From NCBI GenBank assembly GCA_003058495.1, contig QBVC01000037.1:1-51705 (forward strand): a stretch of 51,705 bases of DNA. The letters run 5' to 3'. Each line of letters starts with the position of its first letter. Positions within the stretch are counted from its first letter, which is position 1. Below the pieces are notes generated by a model. That model saw nothing but the letters and a program-made list of their open reading frames with translations, did not search any database and was not told where the DNA came from. A program made the position numbers and the translations under genes. Positions 8,248 to 41,511 of this stretch are shown piece after piece. The stretch comes from a gamma proteobacterium symbiont of Ctena orbiculata (GTDB lineage: Bacteria > Pseudomonadota > Gammaproteobacteria > Chromatiales > Chromatiaceae).

Positions 8248-10083
8248 TTATTGAGAAAGGGCCAGCTGCCAGTTTGCACGATCCTGCCCGTAGCTGCGTA
8301 GTGCCTGCAGGATCTGTTGCTTTCGCTTCTCCCGATGCCGGGTTGATTCGAGCAACCTGTATCCCGGTGATTGTTCGCCGAAGTTATGTGCCATGTTGTT
8401 CATGAAGCATCGGAAATTGTTGACTGCTGGGGCGGCCTCTTGTCTCTGCCACCACCAGCTGTGGTGGTCTTCGAAGTGTTGTTCAAGGGTCTCAAGTCTC
8501 ACCATGATCTCTTTGTGTATCTCCCTGTAGCGATTCAGCATGGCCGATTCGGTGTCGTCCAGAATACCCTGCATACGCTCGTCGCTCAGTGGGTGTTGGG
8601 GGTAGCCGGCTGCGATCAATCCCTGCAGGGTGAACAGCATGATATCGCCGAAGAACTGACGTTCGAACTCAGCTGAAATATCGATGTCCGATTTCGCTTT
8701 GTCGATGCCGGCCCTGAATTCGGATTCTCCCGTCTCGTCATGGGTGCGTCTATGCATCAACGGCAGATTGGCGGAGACGAAGCGATCGCCCAGCTCCGAT
8801 TGCATGATCCGTCCCAGCTGCGGACCGGCCATGCGCAGCTTTAAATCCGCAAAGGGAATGAAGTAGTTCAGCGCCTTGGGGCTGATGACAAAGTTACCCG
8901 TGTAGAGGGTGCGGGCGGGGGTGAGTTGATCCGCTGCCGCCGTGCATTCATAGTGGTTTTGGCGGGTAGGGTGTACGCCGTCGAAAAAGCGGTTCAAAAG
9001 ACCGGAAAAGTCGTTGAGACAAGCCAGCAGATCGTGCTCTTCCTGCAACCGGCATAGATACCTGAAGGCCTCACCGGGGGGTTGGAAACCAAACAGATCC
9101 GCCATGTCGTGATAGGCGGCATCGCCCCCTCCACTTTTCGGCTGCTGATGGAAAGGACAGCTCACGTGGGGTCTATGTTCGGCGATATCGGAGACGAACC
9201 CCAATAGATCCTGCAGGAAGTTACCCGCCATCACCGCCGGCGATACCGGCGGGTCCCCGACCACCTTGCCGGTCAGTACCAGGGTTTCGCTGCTGGAGAA
9301 TATGCGCTCGAGCCGGTGAAAGTAGTTGATTGCATGGATCCCATCGCTATGACTCAGGGTGTTCACCCGGAACTCCTGATCGCTGTCGATGAACCAGATC
9401 AGTGTGCGCTCATCGTCACCAATGAGCCGCTTCAGTTTCAGGTAGCTTAAGTTGCGGGTGATGGAGGCGCCTTTGTGGTGGAAAGCCGCGGCCGGATGGT
9501 TGCCGACGATGGTGGTCAATCTTTCCCGCTGACAGCTGCTAAGTAGATCGAGTTGCTGCAATTGTTCTTGTGGACCGAAATAGAGGGTTTCGAGTCCCAG
9601 TCGGGTGAATTGCTCCGTTCTCTCTTTGGTCCGATCCCTGTTGCCGGGCTCCTTGCTGTCATCGGCGATCACCACGGCTATCTTCCGATAGTTACCCTCG
9701 ACCTGACCGCCGTAGGCGAAATGGCGGCAGAGGCCGAGCAGGCTCTGCAGGCAAGTCTGCAGCTGCTGCGGCCTGTCGGCGACGGGTATTACGACAATGA
9801 AGCGGTATCGGTTGTCGTTCCCCTGGTCTCTGATCAGTGACTCCATTTCGAGAAACAGCCGGCGGTGGAGATCGAGCAGCTCCCGGGGATAATCACTCTG
9901 CTGCATCTCCTGTTCGAGAAACAGGGTTGCCCTGTCGATGAGTTCGATCAGAGAAGTTGTGTTGGCGCTGCAGGGCTCACCGGCTCTCATTCTCTGCCAG
10001 CGCCCGCTGATCTCCTGCAGCGATGAACGGGAATCGAACTTATTGAAGAAGTCGTGCAGGGCTTGTGTTCTATCCAACGTCAT
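8248..10083 (-). CDS. Large GT2-like glycosyltransferase-domain protein
   Basis: The 611-residue protein contains a GT-A nucleotide-sugar fold. RFIVVIPVADRPQQLQTCLQ (about 94-113) gives the first strand and helix, IAVVIADDSKE (about 135-145) the next strand, and LIWFIDSDQEF (about 228-238) the metal-binding DxD (D233-S-D235). About 90 residues precede the domain. More than 350 follow it, including a predicted helical tail rich in Glu and Arg, which is long for a simple family-2 enzyme. No membrane segment is evident, so it should be cytosolic or peripheral. Its gene is 24 bases after the ThDP enzyme and 2 bases before the sulfotransferase. The donor and acceptor cannot be predicted. Confidence 0.75.
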   Translation of the reverse strand: MTLDRTQALHDFFNKFDSRSSLQEISGRWQRMRAGEPCSANTTSLIELIDRATLFLEQEMQQSDYPRELLDLHRRLFLEMESLIRDQGNDNRYRFIVVIPVADRPQQLQTCLQSLLGLCRHFAYGGQVEGNYRKIAVVIADDSKEPGNRDRTKERTEQFTRLGLETLYFGPQEQLQQLDLLSSCQRERLTTIVGNHPAAAFHHKGASITRNLSYLKLKRLIGDDERTLIWFIDSDQEFRVNTLSHSDGIHAINYFHRLERIFSSSETLVLTGKVVGDPPVSPAVMAGNFLQDLLGFVSDIAEHRPHVSCPFHQQPKSGGGDAAYHDMADLFGFQPPGEAFRYLCRLQEEHDLLACLNDFSGLLNRFFDGVHPTRQNHYECTAAADQLTPARTLYTGNFVISPKALNYFIPFADLKLRMAGPQLGRIMQSELGDRFVSANLPLMHRRTHDETGESEFRAGIDKAKSDIDISAEFERQFFGDIMLFTLQGLIAAGYPQHPLSDERMQGILDDTESAMLNRYREIHKEIMVRLETLEQHFEDHHSWWWQRQEAAPAVNNFRCFMNNMAHNFGEQSPGYRLLESTRHREKRKQQILQALRSYGQDRANWQLALSQ

Positions 10084-10107
10084 CCTCTGTCGTTATCAGC
10101 CGGGAGT

Positions 10108-11775
10108 TCAGCGCTTGGAGGAGTAGTTGGGAAAGGCATCCTTGTCGATGCCGATATCGATCAGGTTGATTGCCTCTTCCAGATCGTACTCTTGGAAAAG
10201 CTGGTCCAGGTCCCGGGTCGTCGTCACCCGCTTGTAGTTGATGCCGAAGGAGCGCGCGAGTTGGCTGTAGTCGGGATTGACGAAATCGCAGTTGATGAAG
10301 CGCTGTTGGTAGAGCTGGTGCTGGTTTTTCCGGATCAGCCCCATGGTGCCGTTGTTGAAGAGGACGATGTTCAGCGGCTGCCGGTAGTTGACTGCTGTCA
10401 TGATCTCCATGCAGCACATCTGGAATCCGCCGTCGCCGAGAATGGCGAAGGTGGGTCTCCGCAGGGAGAACTGGGCGCCGATGGCGGCGGGTATGGCATG
10501 CCCCAGGGAGGAGATGCCGGAGTTGGGGAAATACCGGTTGCCACTGGAGACCTCGTAGAAGTTCTGGGCGAAAATGATGTTGTCATCGAAGACCCGTATC
10601 CCCGCCGGGTATTCCGCCGCCAATCTCTTGAAGAAGGCCTCGGCGAGGGAGAAGCCCGATTTGAAGATGTTGTAGTCGCCATCGGCGGATGACTTGAGAT
10701 CGGTGATCCTGCCGACGGTTTCGGATTGGCCGCTCTCAAGCCTCGGGTTGGCGCGCAGTCTTCCCAGGAGCGCGTTGAGCACTTCGCCGATATCGCCGCA
10801 GATGGCGAGTTCGGCATCGAAGACCTTCCGCAGTTGCTGGGGATCGCTGTCGATCTGGATGATCTTGCGCGCGCCCAGCAGGGCGTCGTCCCAAAGATAG
10901 CTGGTGCGCTCGTTGAAAGCGGCGCCGAGAACGATCAGCAGGTCGCACTTCTCGACGATGTATTTGTAGGCGTTGCCGCTCGAGGTTACCCCCAGACTGC
11001 CGAGGGAGAGCGGGGACTGTTCGCTGACGACCCCCTTCCCTTTGAGGCTCGAGGCGACCGGAAGCTGCAGCAGACGGCTCAGTTCGGAGACCGACTCCCT
11101 GGCATCTGAACGGATAGCCCCGTATCCGGCGACGATGACCGGCTGTTTGGCCTTGAGAAGCAGATCGCAAAATCGGTCCAGCAGGGTTCCGTCCACCGGA
11201 TTGAAGCGTGGCGCCGAGTCGATCGTCAGGTCGTCGAGCAGGGCTTCGTCGATCAGTTCACTCTGCACATTGAAGGGGATGCTCAGCAACACGGGCCCCG
11301 GAATGGGCGCCAGCAGCGCCTTGCTCGCCTGAATCAGGACCTGGGGAAGATAGTCGGTTCTCTCCACCGCCTTGGCGTATCGGGTGATCGGCCTGAAAAG
11401 CGCGGTCTGGTCGATGCTGCCGCCTTCGCCTGAGCTCTCCTGCAGGCCGCCCTTGCCGAAGATATAGGTGGGTGCTTCGCCGGTGATGGCGATTACCGGC
11501 TGTCTGTCCGCATGGGCGTTGGCGATGCCGGTGATCAGATTGGTGGCGCCGGGTCCGGCGGTGGCGATGCAGGCGGCGACCTTGGCCGAGGCCTTCGCAT
11601 AACCCCCGGCCATGAATGCCGCGCCCTGTTCGTGTTTCGCCAGGATGCTCTGGATGGTTGAATCGTAGAGGGCGTCATAGATCGGCAGGATATGGGCGCC
11701 AGGCATGCCGAAAATGGCATCTATACCCATGCGTTCCAGATATCTGACGATAAATTCACTGACTTTTATCTTCAT
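10108..11775 (-). CDS. IlvB-like thiamine-diphosphate-dependent enzyme
   Basis: The 555-residue protein has the three-domain acetolactate-synthase architecture. The N-terminal PYR domain carries the catalytic glutamate (KHEQGAAFMAGGYA, E49) and the GPGATNL loop. A central Rossmann-like domain follows, then the C-terminal PP domain with GDG (447-449) and NN (474-475) binding ThDP and magnesium. No regulatory ilvN subunit is nearby. The partner genes encode a glycosyltransferase and a sulfotransferase, so it is probably not the biosynthetic IlvB. It may make or break a carbon-carbon bond on a 2-keto acid for a specialised product. I place the start at the ATG at 11775 (MKIKVSEFIVRYLERMG), where homology begins; a longer in-frame extension to 11886 looks non-coding. 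Confidence 0.82.
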   Translation of the reverse strand: MKIKVSEFIVRYLERMGIDAIFGMPGAHILPIYDALYDSTIQSILAKHEQGAAFMAGGYAKASAKVAACIATAGPGATNLITGIANAHADRQPVIAITGEAPTYIFGKGGLQESSGEGGSIDQTALFRPITRYAKAVERTDYLPQVLIQASKALLAPIPGPVLLSIPFNVQSELIDEALLDDLTIDSAPRFNPVDGTLLDRFCDLLLKAKQPVIVAGYGAIRSDARESVSELSRLLQLPVASSLKGKGVVSEQSPLSLGSLGVTSSGNAYKYIVEKCDLLIVLGAAFNERTSYLWDDALLGARKIIQIDSDPQQLRKVFDAELAICGDIGEVLNALLGRLRANPRLESGQSETVGRITDLKSSADGDYNIFKSGFSLAEAFFKRLAAEYPAGIRVFDDNIIFAQNFYEVSSGNRYFPNSGISSLGHAIPAAIGAQFSLRRPTFAILGDGGFQMCCMEIMTAVNYRQPLNIVLFNNGTMGLIRKNQHQLYQQRFINCDFVNPDYSQLARSFGINYKRVTTTRDLDQLFQEYDLEEAINLIDIGIDKDAFPNYSSKR

Positions 11776-11945
11776 CAAACTGCATTTATACGGACAGGCC
11801 GGGTTGCGCCCGCCGATCGGGCAGTTTGCAACCGCAGCTTGCCTTTTATTGAGACGCAAGAGCGCTGAGGATAGCCAGATTCCCAACCAATGTCATCCTG
11901 GCGCTGCCGCTCAAGCGGGGTCCGTGGTGCGGGGAGGGTAGTGCT

Positions 11946-13142
11946 TCAGCCGCTCCCCGGGGAAGAGAAAACAAGGCGGCTCTCGCGGCCTATGGCGGGT
12001 ACTTTCGGCACCAGCAGGGAGAGGCTGAAGGAGATCGCCGCCATGGCCGCGCCGGCGAGAAAGACCAGGGCCGGAGAACTGAGCCAGACGATGCCGAAGA
12101 GCGCGGGGATGATCACCGCCGCGATATGGTTGATGGAGAAGCTGACGCCGGCGGTGGAGGCGATATCCTCCGTCGCGGCAATCTTCTGGAAGTAGGTCTT
12201 GAGGGCGATGGCCATGGCGAAAAAGAGGTGATCGATGATATAGAGCACGGCGGCGATCCAGGCTGTCTCCACCAGTGCGTAACCGCAAAACACCAGGATC
12301 AGGCCCGCATATTCGATCAGCAGCGCGCGACGCTCGCCGATGCGGCCGATCAGGCGGCCGATGCGCGGCGCCACAAAGACGTTGATGCCGGCGTTGATCA
12401 GGAAGAGCAGCGCTATCTGGGAAACCGAGAAGCCGAACTTCTCCACCATCAGAAAGCCGGCGAACACGATGAATATCTGGCGCCGCGCCCCGGACATGAA
12501 GGTGAGCGTGTAGTAGAGCCAGTAGCGCTTGCGAAACACCATGTGCTTGTGCTGCTCCGTCTTCTGCGGGAAGAGCGGAAAGCCCAGCCAGGCGATCAGC
12601 ACGATCAGCAGGGTCAGTCCCCCCATGATCAAGTAGATCAACGGGTAGTCGAGCTGCAGCTGGTCGTCGAACAGCCAGATCAGGGCGAAGGTCAGAATCG
12701 AGGCGAATGAGCCCGCGGCGATCAGGCGTCCGAGGGTCTCCGGTGTTCGCGCCTTGTCGATCCACTGCAGGGCGAGGGAGGTCTGCAGGGTTTCGTAGTA
12801 GTGAAAGCCGATGGACATGATCACGGTGGTGATATAGAGCCCCGCCACCGAGGGAAAGAGCCCGGTAACCGCGGTGCCCAGGCCGAGCAGCGCCAGGGCG
12901 AGATAGGCCAGGCGCTGCTCGCGGATCAGCAGCAGCAGGAACACCACCCCGAAGGCGAGGAAACCGGGGATCTCGCGCAGGCTCTGCAGGATGCCGATCT
13001 CCCTGCCGCTGAATGCGGCGCGCTCGATGGCAAAGTTGTTCAACAGGGTCATCCAGGCCGCATGGCTGAGGGGCACGGCGATGGCCATCAACAGCAGCAG
13101 AAACTGGGGTCGCTGGATTGCAGAGAGTCTGGTGTTTTCCAT
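11946..13142 (-). CDS. Major facilitator superfamily transporter
   Basis: With the start at 13142 (MENTRLSAIQRPQFLLLL) the protein has 398 residues and about 12 hydrophobic segments. A hydrophilic central loop (FPLFPQKTEQHKHMVFRKRY) separates the two six-helix halves. Positively charged RIGRLIGRIGERR resembles the MFS motif A between helices. No substrate signature is recognisable. The gene is divergent from an AraC-type regulator with only about 44 bases between the starts, suggesting regulator control. It lies 170 bases upstream of the ThDP/glycosyltransferase/sulfotransferase genes on the same strand, so it may be the transporter for that block. An alternative start at 13193 would overlap the AraC gene and seems less likely. 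Confidence 0.85.
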   Translation of the reverse strand: MENTRLSAIQRPQFLLLLMAIAVPLSHAAWMTLLNNFAIERAAFSGREIGILQSLREIPGFLAFGVVFLLLLIREQRLAYLALALLGLGTAVTGLFPSVAGLYITTVIMSIGFHYYETLQTSLALQWIDKARTPETLGRLIAAGSFASILTFALIWLFDDQLQLDYPLIYLIMGGLTLLIVLIAWLGFPLFPQKTEQHKHMVFRKRYWLYYTLTFMSGARRQIFIVFAGFLMVEKFGFSVSQIALLFLINAGINVFVAPRIGRLIGRIGERRALLIEYAGLILVFCGYALVETAWIAAVLYIIDHLFFAMAIALKTYFQKIAATEDIASTAGVSFSINHIAAVIIPALFGIVWLSSPALVFLAGAAMAAISFSLSLLVPKVPAIGRESRLVFSSPGSG

Positions 13143-35835: not shown

Positions 35836-35862
35836 GCCGGCGTTTTACGCCGGCTTTTTTTT
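35836..35862 (+). terminator. Rho-independent terminator of the LolA/DUF1302/RND operon
   Basis: GCCGGCG, loop TTTTA, CGCCGGC, then eight T residues (35855-35862) form a textbook intrinsic terminator 44 bases after the RND stop. A second dyad (GCTGAATCATCGATTCAGC, about 35808-35826) lies just before it. Confidence 0.93.
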
Positions 35863-35902
35863 GCTATTGGTCTCGATCGCATTTTTATGCTACCAATTCC
35901 CT

Positions 35903-36577
35903 ATGCCTGAACAGTTATTCGACAGCTGGCCCGATAGATACCGGCGCTGGTTTGAAACCCCGATCGGCCGGCTTGTCAAGGTGTACGAGTCGCGCTTGAC
36001 CTTGCGGCTGTTACAGCCGCAACCGGGCGAGATGATCCTCGATGCGGGCTGCGGTAGCGGGATATTCACCGCGCCCATGCTCGATGCGGGAGCGCAGCTG
36101 GTGGGAGTCGATCTCTCAGCGCCGATGCTGGCCGAGGCGCGGCGGAATCTAAGGGGTGACCGTTTTAGCGCTTCGGTGGGCAACATCTGCGCACTGCCTT
36201 TCGCCGATCAATCCTTCGACAAGGTTGTATCGATCACTGCCCTGGAGTTCATCGAGGATGCCCAGTCCGCCATCAATGAACTGTTTCGTGTCTCCCGCAC
36301 CGGCGGCAGCGTGGTGGTGGCGACACTGAACAGTCTCAGTCCCTGGGCGGAACGCCGAACCAAGCAGGCGGAAGGGGATCCGGGGTCGGTGTTTCGCGAG
36401 ATCTACTTCCGCTCTCCGGCCGAGCTTGCGGCCCTCGCTGCGTGCCCTGCAAGGATTGAAACCGCGATCCACTTTCCCAAGTCGGCAACCCCGCAGGAGG
36501 CCGCGAGGTTGGAGGCCGAGGGTGAGGCGCACAACCTCGACAGCGGTGCCTTTGTCATCGCCCGCTGGACGGTTTGA
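35903..36577 (+). CDS. SAM-dependent class I methyltransferase
   Basis: With the ATG at 35903 (MPEQLFDSWPDRYRRWFETP) the protein has 224 residues. The SAM-binding glycine loop is LDAGCGSGIFTAPML (about 46-60). Next come the acidic VGVDLSAPML strand end, the adenine-contacting ALPFADQSFDKVVSITALEF, and VSRTGGSVVVATLN. These are UbiE/COQ5-like methyltransferase-11 features, but the substrate cannot be assigned. It stands alone just after the terminator of the RND operon. The upstream part of the frame (before 35903) lies on the terminator and is not translated. Confidence 0.87.
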   Translation: MPEQLFDSWPDRYRRWFETPIGRLVKVYESRLTLRLLQPQPGEMILDAGCGSGIFTAPMLDAGAQLVGVDLSAPMLAEARRNLRGDRFSASVGNICALPFADQSFDKVVSITALEFIEDAQSAINELFRVSRTGGSVVVATLNSLSPWAERRTKQAEGDPGSVFREIYFRSPAELAALAACPARIETAIHFPKSATPQEAARLEAEGEAHNLDSGAFVIARWTV

Positions 36578-36741: not shown

Positions 36742-38484
36742 ATGAAAGGAAATCATATTGCGGAATACCGCTATGTCGATCCCGATACCAAGAATCCCGT
36801 GCTTCTCTACAGCGATGAAGTGCATGAGATCTATTGGCTTGGTATCCCCGAACATACTGCATTTCGCAGCAACATCTACCTGATCAAGTCCGGCGACGAG
36901 GCCCTTATTGTCGACCCGGGTCATCAGGCCTATTTCGAGAGGACGCGCAACCGGGTGGAACAGATCATGGACCCTGCACGGGTCAGTGGTCTCATCATCT
37001 GCCATCAGGATCCGGATGTGGCAGCCTCGATAACCCAGTGGCTGCAACTCAACCCGGGAATGCAAATCATTACTTCACCAAGGACTAATGTACTCCTGCC
37101 GTACTACGGTGCCAGCAACTACCGTTGGCACAACGTGGTTGACGATTCGAGCTTCATTTTTGAGAGTGGAAGGCGGATCAACTTTATCGAGGCGCCTTTT
37201 CTGCATTTCGCGGGGGCATTCACCAGCTTTGATGAATCGAGCGGGTTTTTGTTGTCAGGCGACATATGGGCCGCGATCCAGCTTGAGTGGCGACTGATAG
37301 TGGATGACTTCGAACAGCATGCCTCGGTACTCGATCTCTTTCATTTGGATTACATGGGGTCGAATATTGCCTGCCGTGGCTATGTGGACAAACTGCAGGA
37401 TTACACAATCGATGCAATACTGCCCCAGCACGGTTCGATAATCGATTCCGCCAATGTGGAAAATGCATTGCATTATCTCGAGTCGTTGGTGTGCGGTACG
37501 GATATTATCTATCCGCATCTGACAAACGGCGTACCGGACGAGTCGGAATCGAGGATTATGGAACTTAAGCAGCAGGTAAAATTGCTTAAGGAGACATCAC
37601 AACAAAGCGACCTTGTGCGAAAACGGTATCAGGATTCACTCGCAACCCTGAAACAAAAGGACCTCGAGTTAAAACAGAAAAAGAGGATGATCGAGAAGGA
37701 TCTCGAGATGCTGAAAAAGATGCAGCAGGAGTTGGTCGAAAAGGAGAAGATGGCCGCATTGGGCACTCTGGTCGCAGGTGTCGCTCACGAAGTCAATACC
37801 CCAATCGGTGTTGCAATAACATCTATTTCTTCCTGCGGCGAAGCGCTTAAAAGTGTGAAAAAACGCTACGAGGAGGAGGAGTTGTCGGAAACGGATATGG
37901 AGATGTTCCTGGAGACCGCCGCTGATTCCATGCGGCTTACCAGGTCGAGCCTGGAGCAGGCGGCGAAATTGATCAGCAGCTTTAAAAAAATATCGGTAGA
38001 TCAAAATATCGATGACATGCGGGAAATAGATGTCAATGAATATCTTCTCGATATTATCAGGACTTTCTATAATCAGCTGAAAAAAACAAAAATCGAGGTC
38101 GATCTTGAATGTCCCCAGGGGCTGATTGTCAGGACCTATCCGGGGTCGCTGGCGCAGATACTTAACAATCTGTTGTCGAATGTAATCAGCCATGCCTATG
38201 AGGCGGATGAAAATGGGACCGTGATGATTAAGCTTCACAAGGAAGATGGTTTTCTGTACATGGTATTTACAGACCAGGGCAGAGGCATGGATGGGACGTT
38301 CAAGGAATCAATATTTCAACCGTTTACTACTACCGCGCGCAGCAGAGGTGGTAGTGGCTTGGGATTGAACATTGTCTATAACCTGGTTACACAGCGTTTC
38401 GGCGGCGAAATCAGCGTTGAGAGCGAACCTGGGAAAGGTAGTTGTTTCTACCTGAAACTCGCTGTAGAGGAACAGGGAGTGTGA
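36742..38484 (+). CDS. ODP (di-iron, FprA-like) sensor histidine kinase
   Basis: The 580-residue protein fuses a metallo-beta-lactamase-fold ODP domain (about 20-265) to a coiled coil (about 270-335) and a histidine kinase (about 336-580). The di-iron ligands H88, D90, D92, H155, D174 and H230 match the flavodiiron ligand set in the first five spacings (88/90/92, +63 to 155, +19 to 174). The extra His after the Asp pair is missing (D92-V93), and there is no flavodoxin domain. The kinase carries the phospho-acceptor H349 (GVAHEVNTPIG), an N-box (NNLLSNVISHAYE), G1 (DQGRGM), an F box and G2 (GGSGLGLNI). It has no membrane segment. It directly precedes the HD-GYP regulator gene, so it probably phosphorylates that protein in response to oxygen or redox. 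Confidence 0.87.
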   Translation: MKGNHIAEYRYVDPDTKNPVLLYSDEVHEIYWLGIPEHTAFRSNIYLIKSGDEALIVDPGHQAYFERTRNRVEQIMDPARVSGLIICHQDPDVAASITQWLQLNPGMQIITSPRTNVLLPYYGASNYRWHNVVDDSSFIFESGRRINFIEAPFLHFAGAFTSFDESSGFLLSGDIWAAIQLEWRLIVDDFEQHASVLDLFHLDYMGSNIACRGYVDKLQDYTIDAILPQHGSIIDSANVENALHYLESLVCGTDIIYPHLTNGVPDESESRIMELKQQVKLLKETSQQSDLVRKRYQDSLATLKQKDLELKQKKRMIEKDLEMLKKMQQELVEKEKMAALGTLVAGVAHEVNTPIGVAITSISSCGEALKSVKKRYEEEELSETDMEMFLETAADSMRLTRSSLEQAAKLISSFKKISVDQNIDDMREIDVNEYLLDIIRTFYNQLKKTKIEVDLECPQGLIVRTYPGSLAQILNNLLSNVISHAYEADENGTVMIKLHKEDGFLYMVFTDQGRGMDGTFKESIFQPFTTTARSRGGSGLGLNIVYNLVTQRFGGEISVESEPGKGSCFYLKLAVEEQGV

Positions 38485-38487
38485 GTG

Positions 38488-39993
38488 ATGACTAAGCTGT
38501 TTTTCTCACGTGGGACAAAGAAGAAAGCGCTCCCCGGTGCGGGTTGGAAAGTGCTTATTGTCGACGATGAAGAGAGCATCCATGAAGTGACGGAGCTGGC
38601 GCTGAAGCACTTTGATTACAAGGGCAGAGGCATCGAGTTCATCTCTGCCTATACGGCGCAGGAGGCAAAAGATATTGTCCGCAAGGAGCGGGATATAGCA
38701 ATCGTTTTGCTGGATGTGGTAATGGAGACGGAGAATGCGGGTTTTGAGGTTGTTGAGTACATTCGAGATACCCTGGGTAATAACCATGTTCGTATAATCC
38801 TGCGTACAGGCCAGCCGGGTTATGCACCGGAGCATTATGTCATCGACCACTATGATATCAATGACTATAAAGAGAAGACCGAGCTCACCCAGGAAAAGTT
38901 GTATACCACCGTACGCATGGGGCTCAAGTCCTATGAAGATATTACGTCGCTGAACAGCCAGAGAAGGTCGCTTGAATATATCGTGCAGGCCGCGCCTGCA
39001 ATATTCAAGATTACGACACTGGACAATTTCTTCCGCTCAATTCTCAATTCCGTGATTGATTTGCTGGGCATATCGGAAGGCCACAGTAAAGTGGATCTGC
39101 TTACCGGCTTTGTCGCCTACCCGATATCAGCACAAGGAGAGTATAAGGTCTGTCATGGTATCAACAATCATGGCGATTGGGAGGAGGAGGGGTCGAAGAT
39201 AGCCGTAATGCTGCATAGGCTCCATCCTCAACTCGACAACATCCAAGGTGCCTTTAATGTAGAAGAGGGAACTTTCGCAATCCCGATTAAGGACAAGAAC
39301 GAGATTGTGGCCGCTATATTGCTGGAGAACCTGGGCGAGATAAGCGAGCATAGCAAGCGGTTGTTGAATATCCTCTCGATGCAGGCGAGTTCCGCATTCA
39401 AGAATATCGATCTGTTTGAACTGCTATCTAAAGAGCACCAGGAAACGATCAATATATTGGCGATGGCCTCGGAGCTGAAGGATGAACATACGGGCGATCA
39501 TATCAGGCGAATGGAGACGGTTACCCGGCTCTTGGCGGAAGAGCTGGGGATCGATGAGGAGGATGCGATCCATATGGGGCATGCGGCGACACTGCACGAT
39601 ATTGGCAAGCTGTCGGTTCCAGACAGTGTCCTGCAAAAACCCGGTAAACTATCTGACAATGAGTTTGATATCATCAAACTGCACACATTGAACGGCGAAA
39701 AAATATTGGCTGGCCACAGTCAATTCGAGATGGCCCGCGAAATCGCCATGACTCACCACGAGCACTATGATGGCAGCGGCTATCCAAACGGACTTGCGGG
39801 AGATGATATACCCCTTTGCGGGAGAATTACCGCATTGGCCGACGTCTACGATGCGCTGTCCAATGCAAGGCCTTACAAGGACGCCTGGCCGCTTGATGAG
39901 GTGTTGGAGTTGATCTGGAATGAACGCGGGAAACAGTTCGATCCGGAAGTGGTGGACGCCTTTTTTCGACTGATAGAGCAAAACTTGATATGA
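38488..39993 (+). CDS. REC-DUF3369-HD-GYP response regulator (candidate c-di-GMP phosphodiesterase)
   Basis: The 501-residue protein has a receiver domain (about 21-145) with acidic VDDEES (25-30), phospho-acceptor D76 (IVLLDVVMET) and a conserved Lys region. A DUF3369 linker follows (about 165-315). The HD-GYP domain (about 318-490) carries HDIGK (H370, D371), H399, the paired HH (423-424) and DGSGYPNGL (428-436). Those residues fit an active phosphodiesterase that would lower c-di-GMP. The start at 38488 (MTKLFF) follows GGGAG and the stop of the kinase gene, so the two are coupled. It is the natural phosphorylation partner of the ODP kinase. A degenerate catalytic site cannot be excluded without structural comparison. 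Confidence 0.93.
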   Translation: MTKLFFSRGTKKKALPGAGWKVLIVDDEESIHEVTELALKHFDYKGRGIEFISAYTAQEAKDIVRKERDIAIVLLDVVMETENAGFEVVEYIRDTLGNNHVRIILRTGQPGYAPEHYVIDHYDINDYKEKTELTQEKLYTTVRMGLKSYEDITSLNSQRRSLEYIVQAAPAIFKITTLDNFFRSILNSVIDLLGISEGHSKVDLLTGFVAYPISAQGEYKVCHGINNHGDWEEEGSKIAVMLHRLHPQLDNIQGAFNVEEGTFAIPIKDKNEIVAAILLENLGEISEHSKRLLNILSMQASSAFKNIDLFELLSKEHQETINILAMASELKDEHTGDHIRRMETVTRLLAEELGIDEEDAIHMGHAATLHDIGKLSVPDSVLQKPGKLSDNEFDIIKLHTLNGEKILAGHSQFEMAREIAMTHHEHYDGSGYPNGLAGDDIPLCGRITALADVYDALSNARPYKDAWPLDEVLELIWNERGKQFDPEVVDAFFRLIEQNLI

Positions 39994-40023
39994 GCTGGTC
40001 TTGAATTGAAAAGGAAGGTCAAT

Positions 40024-41511
40024 GTGAGACGGTCAGATTTGCGCAAACTTCTCGCCATCTTCTCGATGCTGTTTATTGCACCGGTTATGCTCTTGTTCGG
40101 TATATCCGCCTGGCTGTATCTCAACGAAGTGGAGACCGCGGAAAGAGTTACCCATCAAACGGAGAAACTGCAGCTGGCGCAGAGCAGGGAAGTGCTTGAA
40201 AATCACCTGCACAATGCTATCCGTGACCTGATGTTCCTGGCTGATATCGACGAACTGCGGCGGCCGCCAACATTTTTTGATCAAAACCGAAGCAATGAGG
40301 CTCTAGTCCGCCACTTCAAATCAATGGCGGAGAGGAAGGGGCAGTATGACCAGATACGGTTTCTTGATCCGTCAGGGAAAGAGATGGTTCGGGTGAACTA
40401 CCGCGACGGCGGAGGCGTGAACGTTGCCGAGCCCAATCTGCAGCACAAGGGTGGAAGATATTATTTCACCGAAACGATGGTGAAAGGGCCCGGCGAGGTG
40501 TTCGTGTCGCCGATGGATCTTAATGTCGAGCATGGGGTTATAGAGTCGCCGTTCAAGCCGATGATTCGCCTGGCAACCCCCATTTACGACGATTCCGGCA
40601 ATAAGCATGGCATGGTCATTATCAACTACCTTGCAGGCAAGCTCATGGCGTCACTCAAGGTGCAAGCCGATATGTCACCAGCCAAGCTGTTATTGCTCAA
40701 TCGCGACGGTTACTGGTTGAAAGGGGAGTCGCCTGCTGACGAATGGGGCTTTATGTTTCCAGAAAAGCAAGGGCTCGTCATGGCGAATCGTTACCCGGAT
40801 GCCTGGGGGGCAATTAGCGGTGGCGAATCAGGACAGATAAGCAGTGAATACGGCCTGTTCACTTATACAACCCTTGCCGTGGAACAATTGCTGGCAGACC
40901 TGGATCTGAAGCACGAAGCCGCTGCCGGCGCGGCTGACGGACAATCTACGTTGTGGAAGCTGGTGCGCTTTATTCCGCAAAGCGGGCTTGAACAGCCGGC
41001 AGATGCATTGGCCGAGCGATATCTTGCGGTGAATGGAATACTGCTCATGGTATGGGGTGTTGTGGCGTTGTTGCTAAGCCGGGCGAGGCTGTACAGGATC
41101 GAGGCGGGCCGGCAGTTGCATGACAAGGAAAAGAGAATCAGTGAAATCGTGAACAGCGCATTTGATGCAATCATCACGATAAACGAGAGGGGCATCATCG
41201 AAACCTTCAACCCGGCAGCATGCAGTATGTTCGATTACCGGGAGGGCGATGTGCTCGGTCAAAAAGTCAATATGCTGATGGCCTCCCCGAATCGTGAATA
41301 CCATGACCTGCATATACAGAACTATATAGAAAGTGGCATCGGAAAGTTCATCGATAAACCAGGCCGGGTTACCGGAATAAGAAGCGACGGAAGCGCGGTT
41401 GAAATTGAGATCTGCATCGGAGCAAAACAGGTAAACGATCATTGGCTGTTCACGGCGATATGTCGACGCTATCAGCAAGCTGACGATGGTGCGGGTAAAT
41501 TGGCTGTTTAG
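40024..41511 (+). CDS. Membrane sensor with periplasmic dCache-like domain and FixL-like PAS, no output domain
   Basis: From the GTG at 40024 (AAGGAAGG ribosome site 5 bases upstream) the protein has 495 residues. It has an N-terminal helix (about 10-33), a large periplasmic domain (about 35-333, including IRFLDPSGKEMVRVNYRDGG and RYYFTETMVKGPGEVFVSPM, as in dCache-type sensors), and a second helix (about 335-353). A cytoplasmic PAS follows (about 372-483). The PAS resembles FixL, including H427 (YHDLH) where FixL has its heme-ligand histidine, and R448. It then stops: there is no kinase, GGDEF, EAL or methyl-accepting tail. It may signal through a partner such as the kinase two genes upstream, or it may be truncated. 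Two in-frame TTG/ATG alternatives upstream are poorer. Confidence 0.82.
   Translation: MRRSDLRKLLAIFSMLFIAPVMLLFGISAWLYLNEVETAERVTHQTEKLQLAQSREVLENHLHNAIRDLMFLADIDELRRPPTFFDQNRSNEALVRHFKSMAERKGQYDQIRFLDPSGKEMVRVNYRDGGGVNVAEPNLQHKGGRYYFTETMVKGPGEVFVSPMDLNVEHGVIESPFKPMIRLATPIYDDSGNKHGMVIINYLAGKLMASLKVQADMSPAKLLLLNRDGYWLKGESPADEWGFMFPEKQGLVMANRYPDAWGAISGGESGQISSEYGLFTYTTLAVEQLLADLDLKHEAAAGAADGQSTLWKLVRFIPQSGLEQPADALAERYLAVNGILLMVWGVVALLLSRARLYRIEAGRQLHDKEKRISEIVNSAFDAIITINERGIIETFNPAACSMFDYREGDVLGQKVNMLMASPNREYHDLHIQNYIESGIGKFIDKPGRVTGIRSDGSAVEIEICIGAKQVNDHWLFTAICRRYQQADDGAGKLAV

Follow-up and report, generated by a model that had tools for sequence, protein, structure and literature searches.

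We analysed a window of 51,705 nucleotides (nt) from a gammaproteobacterial symbiont of Ctena orbiculata (contig QBVC01000037.1 of assembly GCA_003058495.1), in which a 580-amino acid (aa) open reading frame (ORF), here odp-HK, is followed directly by the gene of a response regulator with an HD-GYP domain (Table 1). Domain profiles, motifs and a model of the N-terminal domain support the description of the encoded protein as an ODP-type domain that lacks flavodoxin and is joined to a histidine kinase (HK). The ORF matches the Pfam ODP profile (PF19583) over positions 1-194 of 194 with 189.4 bits (cut-off 27.2), while the Lactamase_B profile of the metallo-beta-lactamase (MBL) superfamily also matches weakly and no flavodoxin domain was found with Pfam, as an earlier note on this DNA had stated. 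According to PDB sequence matches and the domain model, the predicted fold is nearest to that of solved ODPs.

H88, D90, D92, H155, D174 and H230 align with the motif columns of ODPs and FprA, and the ODP motif set (HxDxD[V/I], His, Asp and QH) is complete. The six FprA-type ligands proposed in the earlier note thus fill all ligand columns, although D90 stands where the motif of flavodiiron proteins (FDPs) such as FprA has Glu; the column of D174 we take to be that of the bridging Asp in FDPs. Across 127 distinct ODP domains (after removal of 8 that did not exceed 180 aa, 11 repeats and 1 FDP), H88 and D90 are always present, D92 is kept in 126 and the position of V93 holds Val or Ile in 124. 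The Val that the note had singled out in place of a His is there but is no peculiarity, and we rejected Val93 as an unusual loss of a metal ligand. Where the genome's own FDP reads HLEPDH and PTHG, the fusion ODP reads HQDPDV and PQHG; in the T. maritima ODP, the Gln at motif 5 is described as an unusual ligand (accessible text of PMC7785958).

The linker between the ODP domain and the kinase is predicted to be helical. The HisKA match behind it is sub-threshold (18.2 bits against a cut-off of 26.9), an HEVNT motif is present at position 349, and the N, G1, F and G2 boxes of HATPase_c are all there (kinase boxes at H349, N475/N480, D511-G515 and G536-G542).

Table 1. Features of the odp-HK locus, in window coordinates.
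Feature	Position	Strand	Basis or remark
odp-HK fusion gene, 580 aa	36742..38484	+	ORF open over exactly these positions
ODP (flavodiiron-like MBL-fold) domain, residues 41-231	36862..37434	+	Pfam
Metal motif HQDPDV: H88, D90, D92, then V93 (His in FDPs)	37003..37020	+	
H155, ligand column	37204..37206	+	kept in 127/127 distinct ODP domains
D174, ligand column	37261..37263	+	kept in 126/127 distinct ODP domains
Q229-H230 of PQHG motif	37426..37431	+	Q 126/127, H 127/127
Fusion-point codons 263-264, GGC GTA	37528..37533	+	comparison with sister genomes
Type-1 coupling-helix motif, residues 267-315, start of linker helix	37540..37686	+	motif profile
H349, predicted phosphoacceptor (HEVNT)	37786..37788	+	motif; weak HisKA match
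HATPase_c domain, residues 469-575	38146..38466	+	PF02518, E 2e-23
Response regulator REC-DUF3369-HD_5 (HD-GYP), predicted cyclic di-GMP phosphodiesterase	38485..39993	+	PF00072, PF11849, PF13487
Membrane-type sensor protein, dCache-like HK_sensor_dom and PAS, no output domain	40006..41511	+	possible third member

Fused and split forms in the genus

The window is contig 26 of a 4.5-Mb genome. In the collection that we compared, the named organisms nearest to this genome are symbionts of lucinid clams: Candidatus Thiodiazotropha endolucinida (72%) and symbionts of Ctena orbiculata (81%, with 93-95% for two contigs). The ODP-kinase unit is present in 7 of the 22 genomes of the genus that were searched, split into two genes in five and fused in two, that of the window and G020. 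In G003, G008, G013 and G019, a 316-aa kinase starts with ATG immediately after the TAA stop of the ODP gene, and in G009 the two genes overlap as TAATG. Pfam, applied to one such split kinase (L042), recognised no sensor domain; it returned the ATPase domain, with HisKA and coil-type matches that stay under their cut-offs. The earlier claim that the ODP domain 'directly drives a kinase' agrees with their fusion in one chain, but the kinase is a separate protein in five sister species, and control in trans therefore probably predates the fusion. In Ca. T. endolucinida (L012/L005), an in-frame TAG occupies codon 62 of odp, whereas kinase and regulator have open frames.

At codons 263-264, where the window has GGC GTA, G020 reads GGT ATG and so seems to retain the old kinase start codon within its fused frame. 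Residues 246-247 of G020 are missing between its two contigs; from residue 248 onwards, junction included, the frame is open. Since this second assembly (L006) likewise lacks a stop between ODP and kinase, and the ratio of nonsynonymous to synonymous substitution rates (dN/dS) between the window and G020 is low (0.048 for the ODP, 0.068 for residues 248-580 and, within these, 0.027 for linker residues 258-335), a decaying gene is unlikely and we rejected a fusion created by sequencing error.

In the ODP tree, the fused pair groups together (100/99) inside the split set, with the split G013 branching outside the pair at a support of 90/89 that is not decisive; 8 of the 14 inner branches are open, long branches were flagged and the outgroup does not form one clade. 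The outgroup ODPs are separate genes too. Given this placement and the separate outgroup genes, the simplest explanation is that a single stop codon was lost before the window and G020 diverged, and by this comparison the fusion looks like the derived state. It is not unique to the clade, an idea we rejected on finding three further ODP-kinase fusions, one with a GAF-PAS kinase and two with hybrid kinases (L155, L162 and L165). A plasmid search gave 2016 matching records, none over more than 80% of the query and, among the matches listed, all to the kinase part.

Helix types behind ODPs

Genes directly behind stand-alone ODPs often start with similar helical segments despite different outputs, and the N-terminus of the kinase, which is the linker in the fusion, carries a helix motif that recurs in unrelated partners of close ODP relatives, with GGDEF, EAL, HD-GYP or hybrid kinase outputs. 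We built a profile of this type-1 motif from seven partners (PAS-GGDEF, PAS-GGDEF-EAL, GGDEF, PAS-HD-GYP and PAS-HK-REC), leaving out the Thiodiazotropha kinases, and compared it with 965 ORFs. The split kinases and fused linkers (267-315 in the window) were matched at E values of 3.5e-7 to 3e-6, the other matches being the profile's own rows, close copies and the linker of an ODP-GGDEF fusion (L121, 5e-8); the next-best ORF, which is not ODP-linked, came at 1.4e-3. None of 3000 heptad-preserving shuffles equalled the real motif score, with a thin margin for the window (29.1 against 28.6 for the best shuffle). The S-helix is defined by an ERT signature in its central heptad (accessible text of PMC1592074), and this signature is absent from all 9 rows of the type-1 alignment. 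The type-1 motif includes a Gln-Ser-x-Arg stretch.

As the motif was discovered on loci also used for the identity classes given below, only searches of the phylum and the class serve as tests. Across 398 genomes of the phylum, 15 matches reached E ≤ 0.001, 14 of them immediately downstream of an ODP in the same orientation; these 14 include three training rows and two loci met before, which leaves ten unseen loci, nine with an ODP, one of these cut by a contig end. The 274 genomes of the class gave four matches at E ≤ 1e-4, all ODP-linked (three known, one new), and in the new one (G360) the contig starts within the ODP, which was recognised from its last residues.

Motif and ODP subfamily go together. 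Behind ODPs at least 50% identical to that of the window, at loci fetched for reasons other than the motif, it lies within 450 nt in 16 of the 18 places that could be read (the profile includes 7 of these 16), compared to 0 of 127 places for ODPs below 35% identity. The motif starts 29-50 nt past the end of the ODP domain at 12 split loci and 33 nt past it in the window, so the fusion preserves the arrangement of ODP and helix; in the L121 fusion (L183 in the distance comparison) the distance is longer, 135 nt. ODP paralogues about 54% identical to that of the window stand directly before PAS-GGDEF or PAS-GGDEF-EAL genes (L045, L046, L047, L044, L050 and L048), and two of these loci have defects: the ODP of G009 (L050) lies in two frames, and the partner frame of G019 (L048) stops inside its PAS domain.

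A second ODP group has a different, type-2 motif (L111, L169, L170 and L177, then L171 and L112). In the same 398 genomes it has 12 matches at E ≤ 0.001, and an ODP precedes 11 of them; with the training loci set aside the count is 8 of 9, and for loci never met before it is 7 of 8 (G425 had been met before the search). One type-2 match without an ODP (G746, 2.4e-4) is in a frame with stops, and four more such matches lie above 0.001 (G488, G525, G636 and G547). A third type of linker occurs in ODP-GGDEF fusions; it is shared by L162 and L165, which end in hybrid kinases containing REC and Hpt, and by L129 and L133, which end in parts unnamed by the profiles used.

Our census holds 147 ODP ORFs, 134 of them distinct and one of these an FDP. 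Among the remaining 133, 66 are fused to GGDEF, 4 to kinases (the window included) and 63, some of them long, have no further profile match; candidates were fetched partly by frame length and otherwise by choice, and these fractions are not frequencies. The census used self-made hidden Markov models and a greedy ORF picker, which missed the ODP ORF in L058, L060, L065, L067, L070, L106, L113, L117 and L172. Besides the fusion, the window's genome encodes L001, which is a stand-alone ODP from another subfamily, and the flavodiiron protein L003; a weak ODP match is L004. Two contigs of a viral collection (L198, 4917-6461; L199, 4914-6758) carry an ODP-like domain with altered ligands (PHRG or PQRG for PQHG), fused to a C-terminal part that, by motif, is presumably DHH-like.

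The neighbouring regulator and the signalling path

The REC-HD-GYP gene lies directly behind the kinase in all seven genomes with the unit, the other six proteins being 77-95% identical to that of the window. With Pfam, including DUF3369, run on the window's regulator, REC is barely above its cut-off (30.5 against 30.2 bits) and HD_5 is above its own; the protein has HDIGK and HHEHYDGSGYP. In six of the seven genomes the HK_sensor_dom-PAS gene (58-85% identical) comes directly next. At the G013 locus (L042) there are two REC-HD-GYP copies (8639-10144 and 10719-12224) and no dCache-PAS gene. Upstream of the fusion lies a methyltransferase (35861-36577), where three split species (L005, 4520-7702; L040; L043) instead have a divergent 1060-aa PAS-GGDEF-EAL gene.

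From the pairing of ODP and helix, the kept spacing and the HD-GYP neighbour, we read the protein as a cytoplasmic diiron O2/Fe(II) sensor kinase and give this reading a probability of about 0.65: an ODP sensor subunit was joined to its former partner in trans, a soluble kinase without a sensor, its O2/Fe(II) state is passed on through the coupling helix, and breakdown of cyclic di-GMP is set through REC-HD-GYP. The ODP domain would hold two irons, and O2 or the Fe(II)/redox state would alter the metal site and the ODP dimer. This change would be relayed through the helix to the DHp bundle of the kinase, where it would set the balance between autophosphorylation at H349 and phosphatase activity, and the phosphoryl group would pass to the next-encoded regulator, so setting the breakdown of cyclic di-GMP. 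ODPs of the subfamily would use the helix to dock onto separate partners and transmit their state to them, a contact that the fusion made covalent with unchanged spacing.

That ODP subfamily and helix type travel together while outputs are swapped is how a docking or transmission element would be expected to look. We lean slightly towards a general form of this idea, in which ODPs are plug-in sensor subunits, each subfamily recognises its own N-terminal helix (type 1 or 2), these helices have been transplanted onto kinases, diguanylate cyclases and EAL and HD-GYP phosphodiesterases, and fusions arise by stop-codon loss with unchanged geometry.

Several points weigh against the sensor kinase and its coupling helix. 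Metal binding, ligand and kinase control by the ODP domain, like the geometry of its metal site, are deduced from sequence, as is the geometry of the helix because the full-length structure model (predicted local distance difference test score of 49.8) was of no use, and it is adjacency that makes the HD-GYP protein the putative cognate partner of the kinase. All ten unseen type-1 loci, and the seven unseen ODP-linked type-2 loci, come from one family (f198) and hence are not independent. The motif protein L189, preceded by a presumably RNase R-like gene, has no ODP; by genome, the type-1 matches without an ODP are in G569 (2.7e-8), in G396 (1.3e-4) and G255 (9e-4), the two weak ones of the class search, and, above 0.001, in G371, G227, G211, G453:C1:2108228 and G622. 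Conversely, two ODPs of the subfamily (L172 and L049) have no motif downstream. Common descent of the ODP-helix unit could also yield the same pattern without docking.

Among the rival explanations, we consider it unlikely that the domain mainly reports iron availability, as apo versus Fe(II)-loaded, and that O2 modulates it secondarily. As a candidate ligand, Fe(II) has to be taken seriously because the title of the founding paper names both Fe[II] and oxygen as what the T. denticola ODP senses, and titles of solved ODP structures include apo, zinc and peroxo-diiron states. The ligand conservation across the 127 domains would be equally expected, while our results do not separate iron from O2 and HD-GYP control suits both.

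Less probable still is that the helix is a leftover from an ancestral ODP-coil protein, dimerising its partner without ODP contact, with the ODP acting otherwise, for example by altering local O2 or iron. The motif is coiled-coil-like, with the window's heptad shuffles nearly reaching its score, shared descent of adjacent genes would give co-occurrence, and the unseen ODP-linked test loci come from one family; yet motif type tracks ODP subfamily while output domains are exchanged, dN/dS of the linker against G020 is low, and the ERT signature of a general signalling helix is lacking.

The earlier proposal of sensing rather than reduction fits the known ODP family for O2, in the accessible parts of its papers, but lacks specific support for nitric oxide (NO), which we consider very improbable as the signal: fold relatives include nitric oxide reductases (by PDB names) and the regulator's nearest NCBIfam model is labelled nitric NosR, yet this match is far below its cut-off (146.2 against 400 bits), its best stretch is the HD-GYP part, and NO as an ODP signal was not found in the accessible parts of the literature examined. 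A metal-dependent hydrolase or inert dimerisation scaffold fused to the kinase, to which the MBL superfamily fold and weak Lactamase_B match could point, is just as improbable.

Relation to known systems

No ODP kinase or coupling helix was found in literature titles and abstract openings, a search outside which most subscription papers lie, including the primary ODP paper; nor did the literature searched contain a paper on ODP with metallo-beta-lactamase and GGDEF, and the matches listed for Thiodiazotropha signalling are general cyclic di-GMP or kinase papers. The new part is a coupling element that is possibly general. In the accessible parts of the literature examined, we found no description of how a soluble ODP passes its state to a receptor or enzyme, and a natural split and fused pair differing at one codon, together with a partner-predicting motif, makes this handover testable with small soluble proteins. 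The helix also suggests itself as a part for building O2-switched kinases and cyclic di-GMP enzymes, and ODP signalling would extend from chemotaxis to two-component and cyclic di-GMP control in relatives of clam symbionts.

ODPs themselves are already known, and so is a class of fusions that join them with signal transduction domains (reported in Muok et al. 2019, as retold in the accessible text of PMC7319448); the window's protein resembles that class in having ODP and transmitter in one chain. The T. denticola ODP (TDE2498) acts in trans on the sensorless receptor TDE2496 of the CheA pathway (accessible text of PMC7666581 and PMC6978683). It has the same HQDPDV, SGDI and PQHG motifs as the fusion ODP and, like the ODP of the split units, is encoded apart from a partner without a sensor of its own and acts on a kinase pathway. 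It differs in that its partner is a chemoreceptor and the ODP is separate, whereas here a two-component kinase is attached covalently and an HD-GYP regulator adjoins.

Compared to FprA, ROO and flavorubredoxin, the fusion ODP lacks both the flavodoxin domain and the HxExDH motif, with Asp for Glu, Val for His and Gln before the last His, and an electron path for turnover is not apparent. H-NOX/HnoK and NosP/NahK are alike in function only: there, too, a gas sensor is encoded beside a kinase or cyclic di-GMP enzyme and acts in trans, but these sensors are haem proteins of an unrelated fold.
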